DNA of 27,743 nt from an uncultured Planctomycetaceae bacterium (GTDB taxonomy: Bacteria; Planctomycetota; Planctomycetia; Planctomycetales; Planctomycetaceae). Positions within the stretch are counted from its first letter, which is position 1, and every line of letters begins with the position of its first letter. Below the pieces are notes generated by a model. That model did no database searches. It was not told the origin of the DNA and was given only the letters and a program-made list of their open reading frames with translations. Below, piece by piece: positions 10,040 through 17,979 of the stretch. The stretch covers positions 1 to 27,743 of the forward strand of contig CAIXQV010000071.1 in the NCBI GenBank assembly GCA_903921605.1, read 5' to 3'. The translations under genes and the position numbers were made by a program.

Positions 10040-11515
10040 ATGACGTTTTCAAGTCAGAAATCTGTGACCCGTGTTTCGACTCCTCAGGCACAGGTTCGAG
10101 CGGCTGTCGTTCGTTGCGATATTACTCCGCCGGTTGGGATCTATCATCGAATGTGGGGCGCTGCGTTGCATGATAAGGCGACGGGGATTCATCGACCGCT
10201 GACGGCAACGTTGCTGTGGCTGGCATCGGCAGACGAATCGAGAGCGGATGATCAGATCCTGATTTCCATGGATCATTGCATTCTGGACACGCCGGAGCTG
10301 GTGAGCATCCGAGATGCTGTAGCTGCGGTGACATCCGTGGCTGCGGAGCACATTCATGTGATGGTCACGCATACGCATGGTTCTGGCTGGATGTCTCGCA
10401 AGCGTAGTGAGTTCCCCGGCGGCGACTTGATCGGTCCTTATCTCGATAGCTTGTGCGACAAGCTTGCAGGTCTTGCTGTGGAATCTCAGCCTCAGTTGCA
10501 GCCAGCCACGATCGTCTACGGGACAGGTCGATGCTCGCTGGCTGCTCATCGCGACTTCTATGATTCGGAGCGAGGTCATGCGGTCTGCGGATTCAATCCG
10601 GCCGGATCAGCCGATGACACCGTGATCGTAGGACGCATCGCGACTCCGAGTGGTCAGATGATCGGGACGATTATCAACTATGCCTGTCATCCAACGACAT
10701 TGGCGTGGGACAACACGCTGCTCAGTCCGGACTGGATCGGAGCGATGCGCGAAACGGTTGAGCAACAAGTCGGAGGACTCTGTTTCTTTATGCAGGGAGC
10801 TTCCGGCGATCTGGGGCCTCGTGAAGGTTTTGTTGGCGATACGGCCGTTGCTGATCGCAATGGTCGCATCCTTGGATACTCAGTGCTCGCCGCGCTGGAA
10901 CAGCTGGCTCCGGCAGGGACGGAGTATGTTTACTCTGGGCCGACGTTATCCGGAACGTGGATCGGAACGTGGAAGCATCTGCCCTGCTCTGATGCTGAAA
11001 AACAGAGCCATCAAAAATGGACATGGTCAACGATCACGGCTGAATTGCCGTATCGACATGATCTGCCGACGATTGCCGAGACGACTGCGAAACGGGAACA
11101 TTGGTTCGCGGAGGAAGAAGCGTCCAAGGCTGTGGGCAATGTCGACCGAATTCGTGAATGTCGCGCCAACGGGGAGCAGATGACTCGCCAATTGGCACGA
11201 TTGAATGCACTTGCGCCGGGGAAATCATGTCCTCTGCCAGTCACACTGGCGTTTGTTGGTGATGCGATCTGGGTGCTTGTTCCTGGAGAACTCTATCAGG
11301 TGTTTCAGCTTGTGCTGCGGCAACGATTCGCATCAAAGCCCGTGCTGGTGGCAACGCTCACCGGGGACTGGCAGCCTGGTTATATTCCGCCGGCGGCTTC
11401 GTTTGGGTACGGAATTTATCAGGAAGTCATTGCGGCGACTTCACCTGGCAGCCTTGAGCTGTTGATTGAAGACGTCTCGCGAGCAATCACCAGTCGTATG
11501 ACTTCTGCTTCCTGA
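10040..11515 (+). CDS. Neutral/alkaline ceramidase-like hydrolase (PF04734 N-terminal domain), no signal peptide
   Basis: This 491-residue protein has the hallmarks of the neutral/alkaline non-lysosomal ceramidase family. It opens with RAAVVRCDITPPVGIYHRMW, followed by the metal-binding VTHTHGSG (THTH at 110-113), NYACHPTTLAWDN (CHPTTL at 216-221) and FMQGASGDLGP (about 250-260). A late block, TLTGDWQPGYIPPAASFGYG, fits the end of the same domain. Known members are zinc amidases that cleave ceramide, but planctomycete genomes carry many paralogues whose substrates are untested. No signal peptide precedes the domain, unlike secreted ceramidases, so it probably acts in the cytosol. Together with the MFS gene nine bases upstream this suggests hydrolysis of an imported compound. 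Its last 29 bases overlap the convergent metallophosphoesterase gene. The family is fairly sure; 'ceramidase' as an activity is not. Confidence 0.82.
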   Translation: MTFSSQKSVTRVSTPQAQVRAAVVRCDITPPVGIYHRMWGAALHDKATGIHRPLTATLLWLASADESRADDQILISMDHCILDTPELVSIRDAVAAVTSVAAEHIHVMVTHTHGSGWMSRKRSEFPGGDLIGPYLDSLCDKLAGLAVESQPQLQPATIVYGTGRCSLAAHRDFYDSERGHAVCGFNPAGSADDTVIVGRIATPSGQMIGTIINYACHPTTLAWDNTLLSPDWIGAMRETVEQQVGGLCFFMQGASGDLGPREGFVGDTAVADRNGRILGYSVLAALEQLAPAGTEYVYSGPTLSGTWIGTWKHLPCSDAEKQSHQKWTWSTITAELPYRHDLPTIAETTAKREHWFAEEEASKAVGNVDRIRECRANGEQMTRQLARLNALAPGKSCPLPVTLAFVGDAIWVLVPGELYQVFQLVLRQRFASKPVLVATLTGDWQPGYIPPAASFGYGIYQEVIAATSPGSLELLIEDVSRAITSRMTSAS

Positions 11516-12383
11516 AGCCGGTCACGTGAATCGTGCCGTCGTCGTGCAGTTCAAGCACAGAGGCTCCGCTGTTTTCAAGCCCGCTGCCTTCGACCATCGC
11601 AACCAGCGTGCAGTAATGAATGCCATCAATGTCTTTCAGGTCATTCTGATGGCTGTGCCCCTGAAAGACGGCAAGCACTTGGCCTGAATTCTTAAGAATG
11701 TCCCGGACATCGACACAGTTTTTGACACCATGATCGGTCGTTACGTCGAGTCGTTGATGAACGAACACGATCGTCGGGAGCTTTGTGGACTGCAGATCTT
11801 CACGCAGCCACGCCAATTCTGCTGGCGGAATGTTGGCGTCGTTCCATTTCGAATTCTTTCGACCGTAGGGAACACCGTCGTTGCGAAAGCATGCGTCCAG
11901 CAGGATGAAGTGAAAACCGGCTCGATCAAAAGAGTAATACGATTCTTTCTGTCCGACTTCCTGCAGGAACTCGGTCTTTGTTAACGTGTCGACACAGTGG
12001 TTGCCCAGAACATAATGTCGATCGGTTGAGAGTTTTGAGAACTCACGATTGATCGTTCGGAGATAACTGAGTTCTGTTTCGACACTGTCTGCAGCGTCGA
12101 TCAGATCCCCCAGTTCCACGACGAAGTCGAGCCCGGATGTCTGAAACTCTTCGGCCGCGGAATTCAGCTTTTTGATCGTCTCACGATAGAAGCGACTGCC
12201 AGCTGCTGGTTTGTCGGCGTGATGCAAATCTGTGATGAGTCCAATTCGCAGTGAAATCGACGGCGATGCATTCGCCGCAGTGATCGATTTCTGTAAGCCT
12301 AATCCGGCGGCGGCCGCAAGGACGAGAGTTCCGTTTGACACAAACGCGCGGCGAGATTCTTTTTCTGACGGGGATGTGTTCAT
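11487..12383 (-). CDS. Tat-exported metallophosphoesterase (calcineurin-like)
   Basis: This 298-residue phosphoesterase has the complete dinuclear metal site of the calcineurin-like family: D-L-H at 52-54, GDLID at 92-96, GNH at 127-129, a histidine in VFVHQ (209) and GHSH at 242-245. The usual GNH[DE] is GNHC here. The N-terminus, with RR at residues 11-12 followed by a hydrophobic AAAAGLGL segment, is a Tat signal, so the enzyme should act in the periplasm. Family members hydrolyse phosphomono- or diesters, including nucleotides and glycerophosphodiesters; the substrate cannot be told from sequence. The gene stands alone on the minus strand and converges on the ceramidase-like gene with a 29-base tail-to-tail overlap. 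No clear ribosome binding site precedes the ATG at 12383. Confidence 0.88.
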   Translation of the reverse strand: MNTSPSEKESRRAFVSNGTLVLAAAAGLGLQKSITAANASPSISLRIGLITDLHHADKPAAGSRFYRETIKKLNSAAEEFQTSGLDFVVELGDLIDAADSVETELSYLRTINREFSKLSTDRHYVLGNHCVDTLTKTEFLQEVGQKESYYSFDRAGFHFILLDACFRNDGVPYGRKNSKWNDANIPPAELAWLREDLQSTKLPTIVFVHQRLDVTTDHGVKNCVDVRDILKNSGQVLAVFQGHSHQNDLKDIDGIHYCTLVAMVEGSGLENSGASVLELHDDGTIHVTGFRKQKSYDW

Positions 12384-12591: not shown

Positions 12592-12640
12592 CAAAAAGAA
12601 AAAAGGCCGATCGGATCAATCTGATGCCGATGGCCTTTTT
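12592..12640 (-). terminator. Strong Rho-independent terminator of the candidate small RNA
   Basis: On the minus strand AAAAAGGCC (12640-12632) pairs with GGCCTTTTTT (12608-12599). The stem continues inward through ATCGG and ATCA pairing with TGAT and CCGAT, with single-base bulges around an ATC turn. The 3' side runs into TTTTTTCTTTTT, a full U-tract. On the plus strand the flanking tract is shorter, so termination there is possible but weaker. Confidence 0.85.
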
Positions 12641-12785
12641 CAGGGAGCGAGGTTTCTCAGGCACTCGCTCGAATTTGTGGGCTCGTTTCTCAGGCGAGCC
12701 ACCGTCTCTCTCAGAAATACGCAGCTTTCTCAAGGCTACGTTTTGGGCTCAAGGATCTCACTCCGAGCCCAAGTCTCTCTCGAAA
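12592..12785 (-). ncRNA. Candidate small RNA with four UGAGA-loop hairpins and an intrinsic terminator
   Basis: Read on the minus strand, the order is linker 1 (UUUCGAGAGAGAC, 12785-12773), hairpin 1 (12770-12745, stem GGGCUC/GAGCCC, apical loop GUGAGA), hairpin 2 (12740-12720, stem CGUAGC/GCUGCG, loop CUUGAGAAA), linker 2 (UUUCUGAGAGAGAC, 12717-12704), hairpin 3 (12700-12680, stem GGCUCG/CGAGCC, loop CCUGAGAAA), hairpin 4 (12670-12645, stem GAGCGAG/CUCGCUC, loop UGCCUGAGAAAC) and a terminator. The stems differ but the loops agree, which is the pattern of an RNA presenting one motif several times. The U-G pair in hairpin 2 and the terminator's U-tract both point to the minus strand. There is no good reading frame with coding character. 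A TATCTA box at 12795-12790 could be a -10 element. The target is unknown; I did not recognise the RNA as a known family. Confidence 0.72.
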
Positions 12786-12830
12786 GAAATAGATAGCACG
12801 GCCCGTGCCAAAGATCCTTCGTAACGGACG

Positions 12831-13207
12831 AGCATCGCGGTGGATTTGATGGTAGAATTGACGTAAGTGTTTTTCCTGTAATTGTTTATGAGTGTTGGTT
12901 GATTTGTTTTTGGGTTGCTCTGCAGCGTTTTGGCAATACTATCGAGGCATTGAATTGCAATTCTTACAACGACGGGGCATTGCATTTTTTACAAATTTAC
13001 GAGCGGTTGGCGGCGTTTTCAGGACTCTGGGCCGTGAATTTGTAAGTTTGGACGTGAGCCATCAAATCGCTTCGACGATCCGAAAAGCCTGTTTGCCAGA
13101 TGTGACCTGCCGCAGCGATGCGGTTATAGTATTCCATCTCTGAAAAGCGATTTCGGCTGTGTTTAAGATGTGCTGTTCCGGATCCGTCATTAAGCGGAGT
13201 GTTCAAC
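12831..13207 (+). other. Leader/promoter region of the DUF1501-PSD1 operon
   Basis: No coding frame of merit was found in these 377 bases. They contain a perfect 12-base palindrome, GAATTGCAATTC (12952-12963), a small hairpin CCGCA-GCGA-TGCGG (13110-13123) with a GNRA-type loop, and directly after it TATAGT (13125-13130), which could be a -10 box although only a weak -35 (TGTGAC, 13101-13106) is present. GGAG at 13196-13199 is the ribosome binding site that decides the DUF1501 start at 13208. The palindrome may be an operator; nothing in the window identifies its binder. Confidence 0.4.
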
Positions 13208-14665
13208 GTGCAGTTCCTGAATGACTCAAGTGTTCCCGAAAGTGTTCTGCGGCGTGATTTTTTGCGGACCATGGCGGCTGCATCGACGGCTGCTTTGGCG
13301 GCGTCCGCTCCTCGCCAGCTTCGTGGAGAGGTGAATCTCAATGCCGTCCACCCGAGGGCAACGGCCGACGCTTGCATCCTGATCTGGATGGGTGGCGGCA
13401 TGGCCGCTCCGGATACGTTCGATCCGAAACACTATGAGCCGTTTCGAGTGGGGCTCCCCGTCAAAGATATGCTGAGCACTTTTCCCGCGATCGACACGGC
13501 GGTGAGTGGTCTTAAGATTTGCGAGGGGCTTGAGCAGATCGCCTCTGTGATGGACCGTGCCACGTTGATTCGCTCTGCGGTTCAGCCGGATCTGGGAAGC
13601 ATCCTGCATTCTCGGCACCAGTATCATTGGCACACAGGTTATGTCCCCCCGCAGACCGTTGCTTGTCCTCATATTGGTTCGTGGATGGCTCGCATTTTGG
13701 GCTCCGTGAATCCTGTCATGCCGGCGTTCGTCAATGTGGGACAGCGACTGGAAGGAGTTGGGGAAAGCGAAGAGTTGAAGGCGTTCACGACGGCCGGATT
13801 CTTTGGATCGGAATTTGGTCCGATGAATCTTCCGTTTCCAGAAGACGCAGCTCAATCCGTTCGTCCGCCGGGTGCGATGACGAGCGATCGATTTTCCAGT
13901 CGGAACAAATTGTTCCGCCGACTCGTGGATCAGAGTCCTGAACGCGAATTCTTGAGCGACTATCAGCAGGAGTCGATGCTGAGGTCTCTCGACAACGCTT
14001 ATCGATTGCTGAGCTCAAAAGATCGCGAAGCCTTTGATATCAGCCTCGAACCCGAAGAAAGCCGCAAGCTATATGACAACAGTCGCTTCGGCCGTGGTTG
14101 CCTGTTAGCTCGCCGACTTGTAGAAGCCGGGACTCGATTTGTTGAAGTCACGACAGAGTATGTTCCGTTTCTGCACTGGGATACTCACGCGAATGGTCAT
14201 GAAACGGTGGCACGCATGCATGCAGAAATGGATCAGCCCATCGCGCAGTTGATCAGAGATCTGGAACTTCGAGGACTTCTGGATCGAACTCTGGTGGTTA
14301 TTGCTTCGGAGTTCAGTCGGGATGCGCTGATTGAAGGGGTTCCTGGCTCTAATGCGGCCGACCAGGCGACGGAACGAGTTGAAGCCGTATCCGAAATGAA
14401 GCACTATGGACTGCATCGTCATTTTACTGGCGGGACCAACGTCGTGATGTTTGGCGGCGGGATGAAGCGCGGTTTCGTCTATGGCAAGACTGCCGATCAG
14501 AGACCTCTGATTGCCGTTGAGAATCCCGTCTCCATTGCGGACCTACACGCAACGATCATGACTGCGATGGGCATCAGTCCGCAGGCTGGATTTGATATTG
14601 AAGGCCGCCCGTTCTACGTGACTCAGGATGGCAAGGGCCAGGCCGTGAAGGAACTGTTTGCTTGA
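13208..14665 (+). CDS. DUF1501 family protein, Tat-exported, 485 aa
   Basis: This is a second full-length DUF1501 protein with an alkaline phosphatase/sulfatase-like fold. The N-terminus has RRDFLRTMAAASTAALAAS, a Tat signal with RR at 15-16. The body has ACILIWMGGGMAAPDTFDPK, the family opening, and later FVEVTTEYVPFLHWDTHANG and RTLVVIASEFSRDAL. In this protein the block that reads SEHGRTPQ in the other cluster is SEFSRDAL, a clear divergence at a conserved position. The start is GTG at 13208, eight bases after GGAG; the GTG at 13199 overlaps that ribosome binding site and is less likely. It is followed 23 bases later by the PSD1 gene, forming a two-gene operon. The role is inferred only from the conserved DUF1501/PSD1 pairing. 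Confidence 0.92.
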   Translation: MQFLNDSSVPESVLRRDFLRTMAAASTAALAASAPRQLRGEVNLNAVHPRATADACILIWMGGGMAAPDTFDPKHYEPFRVGLPVKDMLSTFPAIDTAVSGLKICEGLEQIASVMDRATLIRSAVQPDLGSILHSRHQYHWHTGYVPPQTVACPHIGSWMARILGSVNPVMPAFVNVGQRLEGVGESEELKAFTTAGFFGSEFGPMNLPFPEDAAQSVRPPGAMTSDRFSSRNKLFRRLVDQSPEREFLSDYQQESMLRSLDNAYRLLSSKDREAFDISLEPEESRKLYDNSRFGRGCLLARRLVEAGTRFVEVTTEYVPFLHWDTHANGHETVARMHAEMDQPIAQLIRDLELRGLLDRTLVVIASEFSRDALIEGVPGSNAADQATERVEAVSEMKHYGLHRHFTGGTNVVMFGGGMKRGFVYGKTADQRPLIAVENPVSIADLHATIMTAMGISPQAGFDIEGRPFYVTQDGKGQAVKELFA

Positions 14666-14688
14666 GTCATGGTGAGAGGTTGACTGAG

Positions 14689-17600
14689 ATGAAATCTGCG
14701 TCTGGCGTTGAGCAATTAAACATGCGACGATTCATCATGCCGAGATTTGCCCCGATTCTTGTTCTCGCCGTCTTTGTATTTCAGCCCAAGGTCGGCATCG
14801 CGCAGGAACAGGATTCTCCGGCGGAGTTCTCTGCTGAGGATCTGACGTTTTTCGAATCCAAAGTTCGTCCGCTGCTTGTGGATCGCTGTTATGAGTGTCA
14901 TAGCGAAGCAAAACAGAAGGGGCAGCTGCGGCTTGATGCCAGAGAATTGATTCTGGCCGGCGGAGAATCCGGAGCGGCTCTTGTGCCGAAGAATCCTGAC
15001 GAGAGCCTGCTGTTACAAGCCGTTCGTTTCGAGTCCTTCGAAATGCCGCCGAGCGGTAAACTTCCGGATGCTGAAATTGCAATCCTTGAAGAATGGGTTC
15101 GCCGTGGTGCTCCGTGGCCAAAGTCTGACGGGAAGCCGGTTGCGACCACTCATGGCAAGACGGGCTTCACAGACGAAGATCGAGCCTGGTGGGCTTTGCA
15201 GCCCCTGCAAGATCATGCGCCGCCGGAAATTGAGAACGACGTGTGGAGTCGAAATGAGATCGATCGATTTACGCTGAAACAGATGACTTCTCATCAGTTG
15301 ACCCCAGCGCCGGAGGCTGATCGCGCGACCTTGATTCGTCGACTTTCTTTTGACTTAATCGGGTTGCCACCGACACCCGCCGAAGTCGCCGAATTTGAAG
15401 CGGATGCTTCTCCCGACGCCTATGAAAAGCTGGTTGATCGATTGCTTCAGCGGCCTCAGTATGGGGAACGATGGGCCCGGCATTGGCTGGATGTTGTGCG
15501 TTATGCGGACTCGGACGGTTATCGCATCGACCATTATCGCCCCGACTCATGGCGATATCGTGACTACGTCATTCAGTCTCTAAACAGTGACAAACCGTAC
15601 GATCGATTTGCGCAGGAACAATTGGCCGGCGATGAACTTTTTCCAGACAGTCCGGACGCACTGGTTGCCACGGGCTATCTGCGTCATTGGATTTACGAAT
15701 ATAACAATCGGGATGCTCGCGGTCAGTGGGATCTGATTCTCAATGAAGTCACGGACACAACCGGCGATGTATTCCTTGGTGTTGGGCTGCAATGTGCCAA
15801 GTGTCATGATCACAAGTATGACCCTATTCTGCAGAAAGACTACTATCGTCTGCGTGCGTTCTTTGAGGCCATCCGTCCGGACGATAAGCGAGTCGTGGCT
15901 TCTACCGCAGAGCAAAGCAGCCATGCGGAGCAACTGAAACAGTGGGAACAGGCGACTGCTGAGATTCGGGAACAGATTGCTGCCTTGGAAGCCCCTTATC
16001 GAGCCAAAGCGAAGCAGGATGCATTCGAGAAATTTCCGGCGGACATTCAGGATCTGCTGAAAGCGGAGGATGCAAAAAGAACTTCGCATGAACAACAGGT
16101 TTTTGAAATCGCCTGGCGGCAGGTGGACTACGAGTACGATGGTCTCGATAACCGAATCAAAGGCGACGACAAAGAGAAGTTGCTGACTTTGCGACGTGAA
16201 CTGGCAAAGCATGACGGCTTAAAGCCCAAAGCTCTTCCCACGGCACTTGTTGTTACAGATGTCTCTAACGAGGCCCCGGTCACAAAGATCCCGAAGCGGA
16301 AGATGGAAGTCGAGCCGGGAGTTTTGAGCATTCTTAATCCCGATGAAATGGAGATCCCTGCGCTATCTCCACAGCAAACGACAACAGGTCGGCGAGCAGC
16401 GCTGGCTCGGTGGGTGACTCAGCCGGATAATCCTCTTACAACTCGAGTGATCGTCAATCGAATCTGGCAGGGCCATTTTGGACGCGGGCTGGCTCAGAAT
16501 GCCAGCGATTTCGGAACTCTGGGCGGACCTCCCACGCATCCGGAATTGCTTGATTGGTTAACGCTGAACTTTGTTCGCGGAGGATGGAGCATGAAGAATC
16601 TCCATCGTCTGATTGTCACATCGGCGACCTACCGGCAGGCGGCCGAGCATTCTCACATGGCGGAGTATCAGTTGACGGATCCGTTGAATCGCGAATACTG
16701 GCGATTCTCAACTCATCGACTGGATGCGGAGCAGATCCGTGATGCGATTCTTGCAGCTTCAGGCCAGTTGGATCTGACTGCCGGAGGTCCCGGGGTACAG
16801 TCGGATGTTCCTCGACGTTCCATCTATATGCGTGTGATGAGGAATGAGCGGGACTCGTTGTTGGATGCGTTTGATCTGCCATTGTTTTTCTCCAGCACAT
16901 CATCTCGAGACACAACGACATCGCCCGTGCAGTCGCTGTTGCTCTTCAATAGTCAGATTATGATGAACCATGGAGCGAAGTTTGCGGCGTCGCTGTTGAA
17001 CACGCAGAGCGGGGTATCATCATCGCAACCGACTTCTTCACAAATCACAGCGCTGTGGGAACGAGCTTTTGGCCGCGAACCCTCAGAATCAGAACTTCGA
17101 GATGCGGAGCAATTCCTGAGCGAACAGCAGGAGCGAATTGTTGGCGAGCGTGGAAAAGTTGATACCGCATCAATTCCGATTGGTCGGTTGCCGTATCGAG
17201 ATGGCCAGGCTGTGATCGTGAATCCGGAAGACAAGCCTTTGAGAATGGCAATCGACTCCAATGACGCGATGAATGCCACTGAGTTTACCATAGAGGCCTG
17301 TTTTCAGGTTCGATCGATCCATGAGACTGGTGCTGTGCGGGCCATTGCGGCGAAGTGGAACGGAGATGCCAAACAGGTCGGATGGATGCTCGGTATTACC
17401 GGGAAAGGGTCGCGACGAAAACCGCAAACGCTGGTCATGCAGTTGTTTGGAAAGTCCGTCGATGGAAGTGTCAAAGAAGCGGCGTTGTTCTCTGATCAGC
17501 ATGTCGAGCTGAACACTCCGTACTTCGTTGCCGTGACATTTAAACCCGCGACAACTGTTTCGGAATCCGGAGTCGTAACTTTTAACCTGAAGAATTTGGC

Positions 17601-17979
17601 CAACGCAGATGAGACGCTCGGTTCAGTATCTGTTCCTCACAGTGTGATTGACGGTCTGCAAAACAATTTGCCGCTGACACTGGGATTCCGGCAGGGAGCT
17701 GCCGAGAGCAGTTTTGATGGATTGATCGACGATGTGCGTCTTTCGGCCACGGCTCTTGGCGTTGATCAGTTGTTGCTCAGCTCCGAAGGTCCCGGGCCAT
17801 CGACACTGGCCTTCTGGAAATTCGAACCGGTTCCGGGGCTCCTTGAAGACTCCAGTTCTCATTCGCGTCGGCTGTCCATCCTTCGCGAGGACTCATCCGC
17901 CGTTTCGCCAGAGCAGGCCGCTCTGGCCGATCTGTGCCACGTCATTCTGAACTCGAACGAGTTCTTGTACGTCAAGTAG
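14689..17979 (+). CDS. PSCyt1-DUF1549-DUF1553 (PSD1) protein with LamG-like domain inserted near the C-terminus
   Basis: This is an exported planctomycete cytochrome-like protein of 1096 residues. Its signal peptide lies at about residues 12-39. PSCyt1 carries CYECH at 67-71, and DUF1549 carries GERWARHWLDVVRYADSDGY and a second heme-type motif CAKCHDHKYDP at 369-379. A charged helical region (about 410-510) separates DUF1549 from DUF1553 (about 568-830). Residues about 840-1048 look like a LamG/concanavalin-type sandwich (EFTIEACFQVRS, GWMLGITGKG, FDGLIDDVRLSATAL, LAFWKFEP). After it the sequence returns to the normal DUF1553 ending, ALADLCHVILNSNEFLYVK. LamG-like domains usually bind glycans or proteins. 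The ATG at 14689 follows GAGAGG by ten bases; the upstream TTG at 14662 overlaps the DUF1501 stop codon and is not favoured. Confidence 0.92.
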   Translation: MKSASGVEQLNMRRFIMPRFAPILVLAVFVFQPKVGIAQEQDSPAEFSAEDLTFFESKVRPLLVDRCYECHSEAKQKGQLRLDARELILAGGESGAALVPKNPDESLLLQAVRFESFEMPPSGKLPDAEIAILEEWVRRGAPWPKSDGKPVATTHGKTGFTDEDRAWWALQPLQDHAPPEIENDVWSRNEIDRFTLKQMTSHQLTPAPEADRATLIRRLSFDLIGLPPTPAEVAEFEADASPDAYEKLVDRLLQRPQYGERWARHWLDVVRYADSDGYRIDHYRPDSWRYRDYVIQSLNSDKPYDRFAQEQLAGDELFPDSPDALVATGYLRHWIYEYNNRDARGQWDLILNEVTDTTGDVFLGVGLQCAKCHDHKYDPILQKDYYRLRAFFEAIRPDDKRVVASTAEQSSHAEQLKQWEQATAEIREQIAALEAPYRAKAKQDAFEKFPADIQDLLKAEDAKRTSHEQQVFEIAWRQVDYEYDGLDNRIKGDDKEKLLTLRRELAKHDGLKPKALPTALVVTDVSNEAPVTKIPKRKMEVEPGVLSILNPDEMEIPALSPQQTTTGRRAALARWVTQPDNPLTTRVIVNRIWQGHFGRGLAQNASDFGTLGGPPTHPELLDWLTLNFVRGGWSMKNLHRLIVTSATYRQAAEHSHMAEYQLTDPLNREYWRFSTHRLDAEQIRDAILAASGQLDLTAGGPGVQSDVPRRSIYMRVMRNERDSLLDAFDLPLFFSSTSSRDTTTSPVQSLLLFNSQIMMNHGAKFAASLLNTQSGVSSSQPTSSQITALWERAFGREPSESELRDAEQFLSEQQERIVGERGKVDTASIPIGRLPYRDGQAVIVNPEDKPLRMAIDSNDAMNATEFTIEACFQVRSIHETGAVRAIAAKWNGDAKQVGWMLGITGKGSRRKPQTLVMQLFGKSVDGSVKEAALFSDQHVELNTPYFVAVTFKPATTVSESGVVTFNLKNLANADETLGSVSVPHSVIDGLQNNLPLTLGFRQGAAESSFDGLIDDVRLSATALGVDQLLLSSEGPGPSTLAFWKFEPVPGLLEDSSSHSRRLSILREDSSAVSPEQAALADLCHVILNSNEFLYVK

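Follow-up and report, generated by a model that had tools for sequence, protein, structure and literature searches.

What is encoded on the minus strand between positions 12592 and 12785 of the 27,743-nt stretch of DNA analysed here (hereafter the window), where consecutive hairpins carry near-identical UGAGA loops, and what could a loop repeated in this way serve for? The earlier note had placed there four hairpins (with the loops of Table 1) and an intrinsic terminator, and all these elements were found within that segment. The locus turned out to hold more, namely a sigma-54 promoter, palindromes upstream of it and GAGAGAGA linkers, with the same hairpin recurring in mRNA leaders. The hairpins are joined by these conserved linkers, and our own count gives six UGAGA or GAGAGA sites in the RNA. 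Judged by its parts, the stretch 12599-12784 of the minus strand is a small-RNA gene of its own (hereafter UGAGA RNA), the transcription of which would begin at the start predicted from the promoter.

Table 1. Features of the UGAGA-RNA locus in the window (A2, alignment of 28 homologues; R1, covariance model made from A2; percentages refer to the covariation test).
Feature	Position	Strand	Remarks
Upstream palindrome 1 (TTGTAAAAAATGCAA)	12980..12994	minus	Probable enhancer-binding-protein site; 184 nt above the promoter
Upstream palindrome 2 (TTGTAAGAATTGCAA)	12955..12969	minus	25 nt from palindrome 1; −159 from the promoter
Sigma-54 −24/−12 promoter (TGGCACGGGCCGTGCT)	12795..12810	minus	−24/−12-like element at the same place in all 28 A2 rows
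Small RNA, ~186 nt	12599..12784	minus	Start predicted from the promoter; R1 match of 198 bits at 12599-12786, the window sequence being itself a member of R1
5' linker (UCGAGAGAGAC)	12773..12783	minus	Purine linker; GAGAGA conserved in A2
Hairpin 1, loop GUGAGA	12743..12772	minus	Helix 1: 76.2% of cells paired
Hairpin 2, loop CUUGAGAAA	12719..12741	minus	Helix 2: 93.9% of cells paired
Linker (UCUGAGAGAGAC)	12704..12715	minus	Purine linker; GAGAGA conserved in A2
Hairpin 3, loop CCUGAGAAA	12677..12702	minus	Helix 3: 97.6% of cells paired
Hairpin 4, loop UGCCUGAGAAAC	12645..12670	minus	Helices 4-5: 75.9 and 69.0% of cells paired
Intrinsic terminator	12599..12640	minus	Helix 6: 91.7% of cells paired
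Metallophosphatase gene, downstream of UGAGA RNA	11487..12383	minus	Not part of the RNA; start ~215 nt past the terminator

The predicted fold of segment 12585-12800 reaches −83.1 kcal/mol, as compared with −63.3 ± 4.6 kcal/mol for dinucleotide shuffles (z −4.36; none of the 200 shuffles was as good). The plus strand of the segment also beats its shuffles (z −3.49), because perfect hairpins must fold on both strands. A coding transcript was rejected, as the window RNA lacks an ATG reading frame and the 28 sequences of A2 share none. On the upstream side, we observed an inverted repeat of 13 nt, its arms 31 nt apart (window 12989-13045), which overlaps with upstream palindrome 1, and, at 13199-17979, a DUF1501 gene and, after it, a PSCyt1/PSCyt2/PSD1 gene.

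Homologues were first found by a DNA search of 170 genomes, which make up one planctomycete family (the family of G001) and include a Thalassoglobus neptunius genome and metagenome-assembled genomes titled Schlesneria. The covariance model R1 was made from the 28 sequences of A2, an alignment that leaves out L117, cut by a contig end, and the chance matches L128 and L129. UGAGA RNA occurs in 30 of the 170 genomes, 29 of them with R1 scores of at least 66 bits and the last one, G026, with a copy split across two contigs. The nearest relative, L001, differs by three substitutions in the ~186 nt of the RNA and by one in the promoter, the region as a whole being aligned at 88%. The number of hairpins per RNA varies among genomes. 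Divergent RNAs were also found by R1 in G096 (39 bits; L159/L180), G173 (26 bits; L165/L174) and G032 (24 bits; L171/L175), each with a sigma-54-type site above it and an hflX-like gene downstream. Among 397 genomes taken from the class, no homologue outside the family was confirmed by R1, the searches over 40 genomes using stricter filters with which weak matches are lost; the matches outside the family scored 26-29 bits in four genomes, and all four were read and judged to be terminators only.

The earlier note had also claimed that the stems differ while the loops stay near-identical, and had given stems that do not covary and loops that are not conserved as refuting the small RNA. The reverse was found in A2. 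Both sides have changed in 25 of the 36 pairs and the loops stay fixed; all 500 shuffles fell short of the alignment on each of the five measures used. When the partners were slid by one column, pairing dropped from 86% to 44-50%, a comparison in which the test structure, taken from the window sequence, is favoured over the slid versions and the related rows are not independent. The same was seen by counting motifs, with L081 (nearly identical to the window) left out and L157 and L158 added: 75 of the 133 UGAGA motifs of 29 RNAs lie within stems of at least four pairs round a 9-nt loop, whereas permuting the arms 1000 times gave a mean of 10.8, with no run above 21, and shifted registers gave 0-2. 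These stem-borne motifs sit on 35 distinct stems, and their loops read CCUGAGAAA, CUUGAGAAA, AGUGAGAUC or close variants of them. The anatomy of the RNA and its covarying stems with fixed loops are thus demonstrated at the level of sequence.

That the RNA belongs to no described family, as first supposed, agrees with the Rfam search of the window, which gave no match at the gathering threshold. A search of nine homologous loci at E values up to 0.5 returned two matches, which fell short of the threshold and belonged to unrelated families, and a known Rfam family was therefore rejected for the window and these loci. No description of UGAGA RNA was found in the literature covered, most subscription journals lying outside its scope and novelty being to that extent unproven. 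From the covariation, the lack of an Rfam match, the promoter, the upstream sites and the terminator, the view that UGAGA RNA is a new small-RNA family is supported by the tests made.

How would such an RNA be switched on? A −24/−12-like element lies above it in all 28 rows of A2 (its first base is C in L109), a count that combines a narrower pattern, which misses L101 and L109, and a wider one, which misplaced L115. Further up, two palindromes of the form TTGTAAnAATTrCAA were found in all 27 loci scanned, one at −191 to −161 and the other at −161 to −136 relative to the promoter (in the window, at −184 and −159), their start-to-start spacing being 25 nt in 21 loci, 26 nt in three and 35 nt in three. 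The lowest real site scored 12.3, whereas in base-shuffled regions the 99% level lies at 11.1 and the highest score is 13.4, with a matrix built from the same sites that it scores and L081, nearly identical to the window, left out. Targets of enhancer-binding proteins usually take the form of tandem sites above a −24/−12 promoter, and the two palindromes are probably sites of this kind.

The gene context bears on whether the segment is a separate RNA at all. It could be read as a leader or attenuator of the metallophosphatase gene, which lies downstream on the same strand here and in L001; the terminator, however, stands about 215 nt before that gene, and in 11 of 24 loci (sorted by eye) the RNA is divergent from a tadA-like gene and has other genes downstream. 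The leader reading was rejected on account of the terminator and the changed gene context, and we regard it as very improbable.

Weak R1 matches led to other transcripts with UGAGA hairpins. Two tandem CCUGAGARA motifs gave 57 matches in 43 of the 170 genomes, as compared with 8 for the reversed control. By our own sorting, the tandem is of the leader type in 28 genomes, and the next gene is a pilin-like one in 28 of 28; the remaining matches are mostly UGAGA RNA itself or repeats devoid of stems. A looser tandem pattern gave 85 matches in 12 genomes, versus 38 for its reversed control, and the tandem matches outside the family look like plain repeats, as judged from the matched letters and not from their context. 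The pilin-like protein weakly resembles Flp pilins (PF16982, E 0.015, under the cut-off, for one of two queries) and has relatives in 139 of the 170 genomes, as many as 23 of them in a single genome. Further pilin-like genes in tandem arrays were noticed in G040:C1, near 5108887-5111437, and in relatives.

We then quantified this link with the best pilin hit of each RNA carrier, scanning the 600 nt upstream for a hairpin of at least five pairs. Such a hit is present in 25 of the 30 carriers (none in G023, G028, G109, G110 and G139), and the leader hairpin was found at 14 of the 25, against 0.53 expected from dinucleotide shuffles. It accompanies 12 of the 14 hits scoring at least 83 bits and 2 of the 11 scoring less, and none of the five second pilin hits of carriers. 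All 15 close relatives of the pilin first found, that of L357, are preceded by it as well (0.55 expected), these relatives being mutually related. It was found at none of the 13 best pilin hits of further genomes (L373-386, except L381, the upstream sequence of which is too short for this test), although two of these genomes, G066 and G083, carry the hairpin ahead of a different pilin copy. The pilin hits of L411 and L412 have a long reading frame in common with L406 and L409. As a background, with the loop letters restricted, three hairpins were found in 80 metallophosphatase loci (1.31 Mb), two of these being UGAGA RNA itself in L001. The sharing of the hairpin by the RNA and the leaders is likewise a direct reading of the sequences. 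In the genomes of L357-372, which have the pilin-leader hairpins, R1 finds nothing or weak matches, which are the leader itself in those examined.

The pilin genes resemble UGAGA RNA in their promoters too, a sigma-54-type site being found upstream in 16 of 16 of L357-372 and in 11 of the 14 hairpin-bearing pilin leaders of carriers. Nevertheless, one activator for both the RNA and the pilin is not supported, as the RNA palindromes are missing from the pilin promoters: among 21 of these, no match exceeded 9.4 (only 47 nt were scanned in L399). Because the upstream palindromes are not common to the two, the RNA and pilin promoters appear to be controlled by different activators. Around the pilin sigma-54 promoter, a pattern repeating every ~9 nt was noticed by eye, for example in L409 and L172.

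From these data, we propose, with a probability of roughly 0.55, that UGAGA RNA is a sigma-54-dependent regulatory sponge for one RNA-binding protein, and that the pilin leader is affected by it. A signal would act through an enhancer-binding protein bound to the pair of upstream palindromes to turn on the −24/−12 promoter, and the transcript of ~186 nt would end at its own terminator. The UGAGA-loop hairpins and the GAGAGAGA linkers would offer repeated sites to a single RNA-binding protein, which would otherwise sit on the pilin mRNA leader by means of the same hairpin. With more UGAGA RNA, the protein would be drawn off the pilin leader and pilin output would be altered; transcription of the RNA, the protein binder, its titration and the direction of the effect on pilin are what we infer from the sequences. 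The titration idea gains weight from the occurrence of the same hairpin in pilin mRNA leaders, since a motif that is shared by the RNA and the leader, and not complementary between them, points to a common binder.

Several observations count against this proposal. First, 11 of the 25 carriers lack the hairpin at their best pilin hit, including two among the 14 closest, and five carriers have no pilin hit. Second, R1 finds nothing or weak matches in the genomes of L357-372 in spite of their pilin-leader hairpins. Third, the upstream palindromes are not shared by the RNA and pilin promoters. Fourth, the hairpins of the leaders are distant from the start codon, about 120-450 nt before it. The pilin link thus holds for roughly one half of the carriers, and there must be other targets, given the carriers that have no pilin hit or no hairpin ahead of one.

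The shared motif also bears on the opposite possibility, that UGAGA RNA acts by base pairing. Its exposed, repeated and invariant short loops would suit seeds for mRNAs carrying UCUCA (complement UUUCUCAGG), with the pilin leader competing for a third RNA in which the complement occurs. However, the pilin leader bears the same motif and not its complement, Hfq was not found in the 170 genomes, and conservation extends over stems, loops and GAGA linkers, not over a single extended seed. We consider base pairing unlikely, the same motif in RNA and leader being a better fit for the sponge of a common binder than for antisense pairing.

Which protein could read the loops? PyrR recognizes loops of the consensus CNGNGA, which the loop core CUGAGA resembles, in a match of letters only. 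The UGAGA loop is 9-11 nt long, however, and has a different closing context, so that hairpin loops read by a PyrR-like protein are an improbable account, if somewhat less so than a leader. A sponge for Hfq was rejected: Hfq was found in 0 of the 170 family genomes at E values up to 0.001, many of these genomes being drafts and the control search being positive in 5 of 14 known genomes. By contrast with Hfq, CsrA is present in 170 of 170 genomes, with 3-17 copies in each.

From the lack of a GGA core in the loops, the earlier note implied a partner other than CsrA. Given that Hfq was not found and that each genome has 3-17 CsrA genes, a diverged CsrA is nonetheless a serious candidate for the UGAGA binder, the alternative being another protein. 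In this special case of the sponge reading, one or more CsrA paralogues, including a clade with sigma-54-type promoters, would read UGAGA instead of GGA, and UGAGA RNA would be their CsrB. The following lines of evidence bear on it. First, a comparison of 85 of the 86 CsrA matches of ten genomes (the one omitted, from G040, has an internal stop) singled out a clade of 10 genes in 9 genomes, with a support of 0.98 (L291, L295, L299, L303, L305, L307, L310, L314, L316 and L318; upstream regions L426-L435). The fifth strand of this clade reads VRVMRGEL, versus VAVHREEI in the solved protein 2jpp, the arginine being kept. Second, a −24/−12-like site lies 96-127 nt before the start codon of 10 of the 10 clade csrA genes and of 10 of the 75 others with a threshold chosen afterwards, although at the pre-set threshold of 12 this excess comes down to 3/10 versus 5/75. 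An enrichment of sigma-54 promoters at csrA genes of Planctomycetia is reported in a published survey (PMC12316311).

Third, a palindrome, TTGTCAAAATGACAA, stands at −177/−178 above the clade csrA promoter in the five RNA carriers with a clade gene (G001, G136, G110, G023 and G028; one letter is changed in G023), whereas for the five clade csrA genes of the four other genomes it did not rank as one of the two best matches. It resembles the RNA sites in its form, its position and its outermost letters, yet it is single and differs from them in sequence. Fourth, some hairpin loops of the divergent RNAs of G096, G173 and G032 read GGAGA beside UGAGA, as seen by eye. Against this candidate, CsrA needs GGA in the systems known, and the standard loops have none. 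Furthermore, the clade occurs in genomes where no UGAGA RNA was seen (G105 and G016), and the csrA palindrome is not that of the RNA. A CsrA clade confined to carriers was looked for in ten genomes and not found. On balance, we hold the diverged-CsrA case as a tentative one. The likeliest binder may still be a member of the CsrA family, expanded as it is in these genomes, a choice that we make with low confidence; otherwise, it would be another RNA-binding protein.

Similarly to CsrB/CsrC and RsmX/Y/Z, UGAGA RNA has several hairpins with one repeated loop motif and a terminator, its loop motif recurs in mRNA leaders, and CsrA is plentiful in the genomes of its family. It differs from them in that its loops carry UGAGA and not GGA, so that the multiple GGA loops of these RNAs are not found, in having a sigma-54 promoter with palindromic upstream sites and no Rfam match, and in that its binding to CsrA is hypothetical. 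With CrcZ/CrcY of Pseudomonas, it shares a sigma-54-type promoter and a sponge-like repeated motif. CrcZ titrates Hfq/Crc through A-rich single-stranded motifs, whereas Hfq was not found in the planctomycete family studied here (0/170). With the Qrr RNAs of Vibrio, it has in common a sigma-54-type promoter, upstream activator sites and a terminator. Qrr RNAs pair with mRNAs through Hfq, whereas the repeated element of UGAGA RNA is a hairpin loop, and the search for Hfq gave none. In sequence at least, UGAGA RNA has the −24/−12 promoter and the upstream activator sites of a sigma-54-driven small RNA. By analogy, it would work like CsrB or CrcZ, and yet it falls under neither definition, with no GGA, no Hfq found and no Rfam match.

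To our knowledge, few RNA-binding proteins have a known sponge RNA. UGAGA RNA is a candidate for such a sponge that comes with its promoter, upstream sites, structure and a linked mRNA leader, in a family that looks devoid of Hfq and is rich in CsrA (up to 17 genes per genome). It is possible, and we put it forward with reserve, that in this family without detectable Hfq a CsrA paralogue or a new protein with UGAGA specificity, kept in check by the sponge, gates pilin along with other targets. The UGAGA hairpin provides a ready bait for the identification of its binder, and a change of specificity by CsrA paralogues becomes directly testable.
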